From assembly GCA_944388965.1 (NCBI GenBank), contig CALXKL010000002.1, positions 124,001 through 188,000 of the forward strand: a DNA stretch of 64,000 bases, given 5' to 3'. The number at the start of each line of letters is the position of its first letter. The first letter of the stretch is position 1. Under the pieces are notes generated by a model. That model made no database searches and was not told the origin of the DNA. It saw only the letters and a program-made list of their open reading frames with translations. The DNA is from an uncultured Spirochaetales bacterium (GTDB lineage Bacteria; Spirochaetota; Spirochaetia; Sphaerochaetales; Sphaerochaetaceae). This document shows positions 20,834 to 31,464 of the stretch, piece by piece. The position numbers and the translations under genes were made by a program.

Positions 20834-21045
20834 GGAATCCGTCCTCCTGAATCAATGATAACTGAATAATCCGGATGAGACCATATTGAGACAAAATGCC
20901 TGGCTTCTATTACCATCGATGCCGATTGCATTCCCATAGCCTCCAGCCCTGTGATGTCGTCGACCTGTCCGGACGTCGTGTGCACAGAATCCGCCATTGC
21001 TGAATATAGGAGTCATGAGGACTTCATTCGGAGGTGTCCAAGACA

Positions 21046-21900
21046 ATGGATAGCAGAAGGATATTCGATGAGATGAAGCGGCGGATCATCGCCCATCCGA
21101 CGCTGATGGACGACGTGCCATTCACCGTCGCGGTAAGACGCAGCATGGCACTTGCCCAGCTCATCATACGCACCACGCTCTCGCAGGAGGACCTGGTGGT
21201 CACCGACGTGCGATGCCAGGAGAAGGTCCCCGGCATCGGGCACAAGGGCGTGGTGTTCGATGCGCTTTGCTTCGACGGCTGTGGTAACATGTATGACGTG
21301 GAGGTCCAGAAGGGACGCTTCGAGGATCTGCCGAAGCGGGCTGCCTTCTACGAGGCCATGCTGACGGTGCACAGTCTCGAGGTCGGTAGCCATGGCTATA
21401 CGGGAATGCCTCACAGGTGCGTCATCTTCATCTGCGATGGCGACGTAGTCGGTAAAGGCAGACCGGTGTACGACTACAGATGGCGACTGGATGACGGAGA
21501 GGATCTGGGGAACGGAGGCAGGATAGTCTTCGTCAACGGAGAGTACAGGGCGGACGATGCCATCGGACACTTGATGGCGGACATGGACCAGAGCGACCCG
21601 GAAAGGGCGTTCAACGAAGAGGTCAGGAGCGCCCTGGAGGTGCTCAAAGGAGAGGAGGGATCGAAAGACATGAGCGATGAGATGGAAAAGCTTCGCAATG
21701 CGATTTTCAGTGATGGAGAAGCCATAGGCAAGGCCGCAGGCAGAGCCGAGGGTGAGAAGATAGGAGAAGCTAGAGGAAAGGCTGAGCTTGCGGCCAGGAT
21801 GCTGAAGGACGGCAGGTATACTCTTGACGAGATAGTGAACATCACCGGGCTGAGTGCAGACCAGGTGAGCGAGGCGGCATCTGGATACGGGGCGAAGTGA
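21046..21900 (+). CDS. PD-(D/E)XK nuclease-family protein (Rpn/PDDEXK_2 type)
   Basis: Product of 284 residues of the Rpn/transposase_31-like nuclease family. The core reads GVVFDALCFDGCGNMYDVEVQKG, with the nuclease Asp and ExQ placed as in PDDEXK_2 proteins, and HKG just upstream. The C-terminal third (about 210-284) is Glu/Lys/Gly/Ala-rich with GKAAGRAEGEKIGEARGKAEL, the helical tail common in these proteins. Relatives act as recombination-promoting nucleases or phage-defence effectors and often occur in many copies. GGAGG lies 10-11 nt before ATG 21046; a GTG four codons earlier is too close to that site. A strong terminator follows. Confidence 0.85.
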   Translation: MDSRRIFDEMKRRIIAHPTLMDDVPFTVAVRRSMALAQLIIRTTLSQEDLVVTDVRCQEKVPGIGHKGVVFDALCFDGCGNMYDVEVQKGRFEDLPKRAAFYEAMLTVHSLEVGSHGYTGMPHRCVIFICDGDVVGKGRPVYDYRWRLDDGEDLGNGGRIVFVNGEYRADDAIGHLMADMDQSDPERAFNEEVRSALEVLKGEEGSKDMSDEMEKLRNAIFSDGEAIGKAAGRAEGEKIGEARGKAELAARMLKDGRYTLDEIVNITGLSADQVSEAASGYGAK

Positions 21901-22063: not shown

Positions 22064-22639
22064 TTACGCTGTAGGACTCTGCTGGATCAGCTGTCCATTG
22101 ACTTCCATGGAGTATGAAGGCTTGTTTCTCATATACAAGCTGAAGACTTCACCTGTGGAATCGATTCTCACAACATAGTCATAAACCATCTCTGCATTGT
22201 ACTGCTCTTCATTCGGATCGCCATGCATCGTGAATATCCCCCAGACAGTACAATCAACACCATTTGAAGAATCAGATGTGACTGCCTTGATGGAATACTC
22301 ATTCATAGAGCATGTCAGGCTCATTGAAGTGGCTGAACTTGTCCCGGAAAGAGTCAGAGTTCCAGCCTTGTTGGTGAATGACAGAGTTTCTCCCCTTTCC
22401 GGACTACTCATATATTCTCCAAGTTCAGAATCACTTCCGATTGGGTTCAATGACATACCAATCATCGCGTACCCAATAAGGTCTTTCTGTGTTGCACTTC
22501 CTGTATTGACTGCAGGTGCCCCCGGAATCTCACTTGCAGATCCATTGCCATTACCACCACTCGGAGCAGGGTTGTCACCACTGCAAGCCACTGCGAGGAT
22601 CAGCAGGATCGCTGACAACAATACGACGATTCTTTTCAT
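22064..22639 (-). CDS. Small surface lipoprotein of unknown function
   Basis: Product of 191 residues. The signal peptide MKRIVVLLSAILLILAVAC ends at Cys19, a relaxed spirochaetal lipobox, followed by a Gly/Asn/Ser-rich linker and a beta-rich domain (KAGTLTLSGTSSATSMSLTC, then VYDYVVRIDSTGEVFSLYM). No enzyme motif is visible. Base composition is clearly AT-richer than its neighbours, suggesting acquisition or a fast-evolving surface protein. GAGGGAAG precedes ATG 22639. The promoter contains an 8-G tract in its spacer, so expression may switch. It forms a single-gene unit with its own terminator. Confidence 0.8.
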   Translation of the reverse strand: MKRIVVLLSAILLILAVACSGDNPAPSGGNGNGSASEIPGAPAVNTGSATQKDLIGYAMIGMSLNPIGSDSELGEYMSSPERGETLSFTNKAGTLTLSGTSSATSMSLTCSMNEYSIKAVTSDSSNGVDCTVWGIFTMHGDPNEEQYNAEMVYDYVVRIDSTGEVFSLYMRNKPSYSMEVNGQLIQQSPTA

Positions 22640-22704
22640 TTTCTTCCCTCTCTTTCGCGTTTTTAGACGGAGAAAGGACATCGGCCCCTTCTTCCGCCGA
22701 TGCC

Positions 22705-22732
22705 ACTGTAGGACATTTACCCCCCCCGTCAA
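22705..22732 (-). promoter_or_regulatory. Lipoprotein promoter with poly-G spacer
   Basis: On minus, TTGACG (22727-22732) and TACAGT (22705-22710) are separated by 16 nt. Eight consecutive G (22720-22727) start at the last base of the -35 box and fill nearly half the spacer. Gain or loss of a single G changes spacer length to 17 or 15. Confidence 0.65.
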
Positions 22733-30677: not shown

Positions 30678-30687
30678 GGGGGGGGGG
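30678..30687 (+). repeat. Homopolymeric G10 tract in the AAA leader
   Basis: Ten consecutive G followed by AAAAAGGAA and the ATG at 30697. The tract ends 9 nt upstream of the start, adjacent to the likely ribosome-binding AAGGA. Confidence 0.9.
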
Positions 30688-30696
30688 AAAAAGGAA

Positions 30697-31464
30697 ATGG
30701 ACGACCTTGCAGCCGCATCCGACATTCTCGTCACTCGGGTATGCATGAAAAACCATGACGGACTCGATCATGTCGTGGGAGTCCGCAAGAACCTCAGGCA
30801 ACTGAACTATATCGCATACGAGTACGGAAACATCCAGCAGCTCGAGGAACGGGGGATGAGACGGCGCAGCTGCATACTGCTCCAGGGACCGGAAGGGACT
30901 GGAAAGATGTACACCGCATTCGCCCTCGCCCATGACTGCGGCCTGGACCTGTGCCTGGTACATGTGCAGGAGGTGTTCGTGGACGACGAGGACAGGACGC
31001 TTGCGAATCTGCGAAGCGTCTTTTCCTCCATCGATGAAGACAGGGCGCTGTACCTCTTCGACGATGTCGATGGAATCGTCCACAGGCACAGGACCAGCGC
31101 ACTGCTGACCAACCTGATCAAGCGCAATGCGATCATGGGACGCAGTCTTCTGGTGTTCACGAGTCTTCCCGGAGTCTTCTCGCAGGACACGCACCTGTGC
31201 CAGGCGCTGGACATGGTCCTGACCTTCGGACTGCCGGAAGGCGACCAGCTGGCCGATCTGTTCCGCATCTATCTGCCGGAGCACGAGGAGATGGCCCACA
31301 GCAGCAGGATAGCCAGCACATGCGAGGATATGACGCACAGCGAGATCGCGCGCGTCCTGAACCAGATCAGGATCGAGGCCCTTGCAGGCGGAAGCGAAAT
31401 CACCACCGGACAGGTCCTCAACACCCTGCTGGACAATCTACACTCGATCAGATTCCACGAGTGA
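30697..31464 (+). CDS. AAA-type ATPase with degenerate P-loop
   Basis: Product of 255 residues resembling the AAA module of FtsH/Vps4-like ATPases: HVVGVRKNLRQLNYIAYEYGN, P-loop GPEGTGK at 64-70, Walker B LYLFDDVD near 118-125, sensor-1 segment LLVFTSLPG, and a helical lid. Two key positions are altered: the Thr/Ser after the P-loop Lys is Met71, and the Walker B acid pair is DD rather than DE. It may bind ATP without efficient hydrolysis (inference). There is no membrane helix or protease domain. The gene stands alone behind a G10 tract. Function unknown. Confidence 0.75.
   Translation: MDDLAAASDILVTRVCMKNHDGLDHVVGVRKNLRQLNYIAYEYGNIQQLEERGMRRRSCILLQGPEGTGKMYTAFALAHDCGLDLCLVHVQEVFVDDEDRTLANLRSVFSSIDEDRALYLFDDVDGIVHRHRTSALLTNLIKRNAIMGRSLLVFTSLPGVFSQDTHLCQALDMVLTFGLPEGDQLADLFRIYLPEHEEMAHSSRIASTCEDMTHSEIARVLNQIRIEALAGGSEITTGQVLNTLLDNLHSIRFHE

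Follow-up and report, generated by a model that had tools for sequence, protein, structure and literature searches.

The presence of a run of guanines between the two hexamers of a putative promoter raises the question of whether the gene lying downstream, a lipoprotein gene in the 64,000-nucleotide stretch of spirochaete DNA analysed here (the window), is controlled through changes in the length of that run. The promoter reads TTGACG-GGGGGGGTAAATGTCC-TACAGT on the minus strand, from 22732 to 22705, with a spacer of 16 nt and a tract of eight G that includes the last base of the -35 hexamer, exactly as described in the sequence-only reading that had singled out this locus (Table 1). The start codon of the lipoprotein gene follows 66 nt downstream, and a divergent AMP-binding gene of the acyl-CoA ligase type lies on its other side. 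The -10 hexamer agrees with TATAAT at four positions out of six, a feature that counts against the explanation preferred below. Just downstream of the -10 hexamer, the leader region carries the arms GGCATCGGC and GGCCGATGTC (window positions 22676-22704), representing a potential 5′ hairpin; leader hairpins, differing in sequence, are also found at other promoters of the window's type. Folding z-scores of the leaders, with the calculation starting 5 nt past the -10 hexamer, are weak (mean of -1.4).

Table 1. Features of the G-tract promoter and of its lipoprotein gene, in window coordinates
Feature	Position	Strand	Basis or remark
-35 hexamer TTGACG	22727..22732	-	sequence
G8 tract, proposed slippage-prone switch; seven G in the spacer, one being the last -35 base	22720..22727	-	
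Remaining spacer TAAATGTCC	22711..22719	-	identical in the orthologue of genome G002
-10 hexamer TACAGT	22705..22710	-	sequence
Predicted 5′ leader, about 59 nt	22640..22698	-	transcription start (near 22698) inferred from the position of the -10 hexamer
Ribosome-binding site AGGGAAG	22643-22649	-	just upstream of the lipoprotein start codon
Lipoprotein gene, 191 aa	22064..22639	-	start codon at 22639; signal peptide ends in LAVAC (lipobox), Cys19

The product of the gene begins with MKRIVVLLSAILLILAVAC-SGDNPAPSGG... and, on the basis of its sequence, is predicted to be located at the cell surface. The gene had been called AT-richer and its product unrecognised, and both descriptions hold, the former because the gene has a G+C content of 46% versus 58.6% of the window, the latter in that the protein finds no match in Pfam or NCBIfam. 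Likewise, a profile search of solved structures returned no match for this protein, and its AlphaFold model, with a mean pLDDT of 48.6, is too poor for use. With respect to the Tpr family of porin-like proteins, the lack of Pfam and NCBIfam matches and the small size identify the product as a small lipoprotein rather than a Tpr protein. The closest relative in genome G012, 45% identical over the matched part, is also encoded behind a promoter of this kind. An open reading frame adjoining the lipoprotein gene (21034-21900) resembles PD-(D/E)XK nuclease family transposases, with a match below threshold.

On its own, the site is weak, because about one promoter-like match per 1.2 kb arises by chance. 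Accordingly, the hexamer pair by itself is not significant (2 promoter-like sites versus 1.1 expected), and the 64-kb window contains two G/C runs of at least eight, where about two are expected. What stands above chance is the placement of the tract, together with the occurrence of the same architecture across relatives. In particular, tracts of eight or more G are rarer than expected in the genome holding the window (2.1 Mb, 17 contigs), with 22 found where first-order base composition predicts about 68, and seven of these 22 are followed, at most 160 nt downstream and in the right orientation, by a lipoprotein start, versus 0.3 expected from random positions (P ~3e-8). A further automatic hit, C6:100204, was left out of the seven; it concerns an exported protein in which the lipobox is probably spurious. 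Five promoters of this genome are of the window's type, characterized by CTTGAC, a G6-8 tract, C or T, an A/T-rich stretch and TAnnnT, and four are found in its sibling G002; in both genomes they precede lipoproteins with the common N-terminus MK(R/K)...C..DNPxP.

The same architecture was sought in 139 genomes of the family, employing the pattern TTGACN{0,9}G7N{0,10}TANNNT and a matched control pattern. Three genera (g1, g8 and g16) yielded 105 raw matches, a few of which are overlapping readings of a single site, versus 1 match of the control, while the other 19 genera remained at chance level, with 11 pattern versus 15 control matches. Besides the window's type, a second type of promoter was recognised, TTGACA-N6-8-G8-10-TAGCCT, whose downstream lipoproteins begin with ...ACDDNTPxP, and poly-C versions of the tract promoters were found as well. 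Among 95 distinct G-tract sites, the spacer measures 16 nt in 41, 17 nt in 20 and 15 nt in 19; that is, 80 of the 95 (84%) fall between 15 and 17 nt, where a crude uniform null would give about 25%, the search having allowed any spacer from 6 to 25 nt. Moreover, two bases not fixed by the search pattern show clear preferences: the sixth base of the -35 hexamer is A (TTGACA) in 65 of the 82 sites whose tract is clear of it, and the fifth base of the -10 hexamer is mostly C, with related sites favouring TAnnCT. Such spacing and such preferences, which the search did not impose, are characteristic of real promoters whose spacing is constrained. The position of the tract is variable, touching the -10 hexamer in 69 sites, the -35 hexamer in 13 and neither in the remaining 13. 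An unrestricted permutation test gave a weak negative correlation (r = -0.32, p = 0.02); a version restricted to spacers of 14-18 nt was discarded, as choosing sites by the total itself makes the negative correlation being tested.

The genes behind these promoters are nearly all lipoprotein genes. Under a stricter lipobox rule, a lipoprotein open reading frame begins within 160 nt downstream at 72 of 85 sites versus 27 of 4000 random positions, and several of the remaining 13 genes encode lipoproteins overlooked by the lipobox rule, or exported proteins. Some of the products contain BspA leucine-rich repeats, Big_2 domains, Listeria-Bacteroides repeats, a right-handed beta-helix or a pectate-lyase-like adhesive domain, all of them typical of adhesins, and the products in general would be expected, from their sequences, to reside at the cell surface.

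If the tract is prone to slippage, traces of length change should be found between orthologous promoters. The length is unequal in four of seven close pairs, which are species-level orthologues: G8 in the window versus G7 in G002, 8 versus 6 in the pair C4/C12, whose flanks are nearly identical, 6 versus 8 in C15/C38, and 8 versus 9 in one pair of genus g16 (G076/G083). In the first three of these the tract is the only indel from the -35 to the -10 hexamer. The other pairs, including C5/C28 and C3/C28, have equal tracts (8/8 twice and 9/9 once). The flanks of orthologous promoters carry indels too, and across the seven pairs the excess of the tract over its flanks is modest. The G012 orthologue of the window lipoprotein has a promoter with G7. 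In one further case a homologue (L094) bears an interrupted tract, GGGGGAGG, and in another a tract promoter (L087) corresponds to an orthologue (L078) with no tract and a spacer of 17 nt. This pattern is what slippage under selection for spacing would be expected to leave, the differences between species being no proof of switching within a population. The phase-variable promoter proposed in the sequence-only reading thus gains support from the recurrence of the motif before many lipoprotein genes with the control pattern almost absent, from a spacing kept at 15-17 nt and from orthologous tract lengths that differ amid conserved sequence.

These observations also bear on other ways of explaining the tract. 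A homopolymer might simply have come to lie beside promoter-like hexamers in an intergenic region, as the lack of significance of the single site would allow; but the recurrence relative to matched controls, the narrow spacing, the association with lipoproteins and the conservation of the site in the orthologous region of two other species make such a coincidence very improbable, and it was rejected. Rejected too, as very improbable, was a switch acting on translation, in which the tract would be part of a longer coding sequence and slippage would shift the frame. An open reading frame of this kind does exist (22064-22732, in the same frame as the lipoprotein gene, with a TTG start at the -35 hexamer), but the start conserved in orthologues and paralogues is that of an MKR/MKK signal peptide provided with a ribosome-binding site, the stretch upstream of it is not conserved as protein and the differences in length are not divisible by three.

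More weight has to be given to a static class of promoters, in which a lipoprotein regulon would use the G tract as an invariant element, either structural or bound by a regulator such as an activator or alternative sigma factor, with drift accounting for the length differences between species. The recurrence of the tract in a regulon-like set with common flanks, such as TAAATGTCC or TAGCCTTCCAGCAGAAAA, is in keeping with it, as is the equal length of several orthologous tracts. However, an element that touches now one hexamer, now the other, or neither, and that is sometimes made of C, is ill-suited to serve as one binding site, the constant being instead the total spacing. The inequality of length in four of the seven pairs, the interrupted tract of one homologue and the orthologue that dispenses with the tract and keeps the spacing also speak against a fixed element, which we consider unlikely.

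The site of the window is most likely a poly-G spacer switch and one of a set through which this lineage would control the transcription of its lipoproteins. According to the mechanism proposed, a sigma-70-type promoter with poly-G in its spacer would gain or lose single G by slipped-strand mispairing at replication, each G shifting the distance between the -35 and -10 hexamers by one nucleotide, to 15 nt with G7, 16 nt with G8 and 17 nt with G9. Since 17 nt is the usual optimum of this spacing, transcription of the lipoprotein in single cells is expected to be low with G7, intermediate with G8, which is the assembled state, and high with G9. On the grounds of the recurrence, the narrow spacing, the association with lipoproteins and the tract differences among orthologues, all observed, we infer that the window promoter is transcribed, that its tract slips within the population and that tract length affects expression. 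As MutS-type mismatch-repair proteins are present, slippage would run alongside mismatch repair and, with a tract as short as G8, may be slow. The promoter set comprises at least seven members in the window's own genome and about 100 sites over the three related genera, nearly all before lipoprotein genes, and so many independent switches would give rise to a population displaying many combinations of surface lipoproteins.

Promoters in which a homopolymer sets the spacing are known from other bacteria, and the mechanism proposed here has been reported for meningococcal porA and for TP0126 of Treponema pallidum (PMC7864442; PMC2791445). In Treponema pallidum, the gene of the OmpW homologue TP0126 has a poly-G tract between the -35 and -10 hexamers, and its transcription is best at a spacing of 17 nt (PMC7864442). 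The likeness to the present case extends to the organism, a spirochaete, to the gene, which encodes a surface protein, and to the geometry of the tract. TP0126, however, is a single porin-like gene of a pathogen, whereas a set of lipoprotein promoters is found here in three uncultured genera; in addition, most tracts of this set touch the -10 hexamer, those of the window's type touch the -35 hexamer, and a block of promoter, leader and signal peptide is shared. The promoters of tprE, tprG, tprJ and tprL of the same bacterium, which belong to genes of putative surface proteins, carry G tracts of about 7-11; eight G or fewer permit transcription of tprE, tprG and tprJ, and a tprL reporter is brighter with G8 than with G10 (PMC7864442). 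These promoters drive porin-like Tpr proteins, those described here lipoproteins. In Neisseria meningitidis, an unstable homopolymer in the core promoter of porA, opc and fetA alters the -35/-10 spacing or the binding of sigma factor (PMC7864442; PMC2791445). The phylum and the products are different in this instance, and the loci are few per genome. In common with porA and TP0126, the window promoter has its homopolymer between recognisable -35 and -10 hexamers at a spacing near 17 nt, namely 16 nt. To our knowledge, no promoter-signal cassette is shared by porA, opc and fetA. A survey of the literature on Sphaerochaeta phase variation, and on lipoproteins switched by homopolymers in other spirochaetes, retrieved nothing beyond T. 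pallidum. The present set is an unusually extensive form of a known promoter switch and no new category.

The common block merits separate consideration. From the -35 hexamer to the lipobox, DNA identity is as high as 96-97% within a tandem pair on contig C30 of G002, and likewise between loci on contigs C9 and C28 of the same genome, while the mature proteins that follow have no similarity or about 21%. Between G010 and G012, promoter flanks 97% identical precede unrelated mature proteins. A mild case is that of the window and the same locus of G002, with 70% identity in the block and about 26% between the mature proteins. Near-identical blocks before unrelated mature proteins suggest a joint copying of promoter, leader and signal peptide onto different surface domains, and there is an even chance, judging from these comparisons, that the three constitute a block of about 110-140 bp recombining onto unrelated mature domains. 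If so, it would represent a portable switch-and-export cassette, by which a captured surface domain gains secretion and phase variation at once, and many lipoproteins, each switching independently of the others, would make up a combinatorial surface repertoire. Loci at which near-identical blocks are joined to unrelated mature lipoproteins are L157, L152, L156, L135, L151 and L164.

Among spirochaetes, what is known of poly-G promoter switches comes mostly from the agent of syphilis, an organism difficult to culture and to manipulate. If uncultured spirochaetes apply such switches to their lipoproteins throughout the genome, this would point to a way of diversifying the cell surface that is general in part of the phylum. 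Moreover, the signature TTGACA, G8-10, TAnnCT would allow phase-variable surface proteins to be listed from assemblies and the switch to be tested in existing metagenome reads.

Other G tracts are placed differently with respect to genes. The window contains a G10 tract (30678-30687) that ends 9 nt short of an ATG (30697), the start of an AAA+ ATPase-like open reading frame (30697-31464). The tract falls within the ribosome-binding region AGGGGGGGGGGAAAAAGGAAATG, where changes in length could vary translation; a DNA comparison with 15 other species of the genus gave no match. Finally, two loci, L016 (G000:C1:205883-205892) and L038 (G000:C13:15152-15159), have tracts of G10 and G8, respectively, inside open frames. 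In the lipoprotein-like protein of L016, the G10 follows closely on the signal-peptide region (CDGTTSTPDV, then glycines), and both tracts are candidates for translational frame switching.
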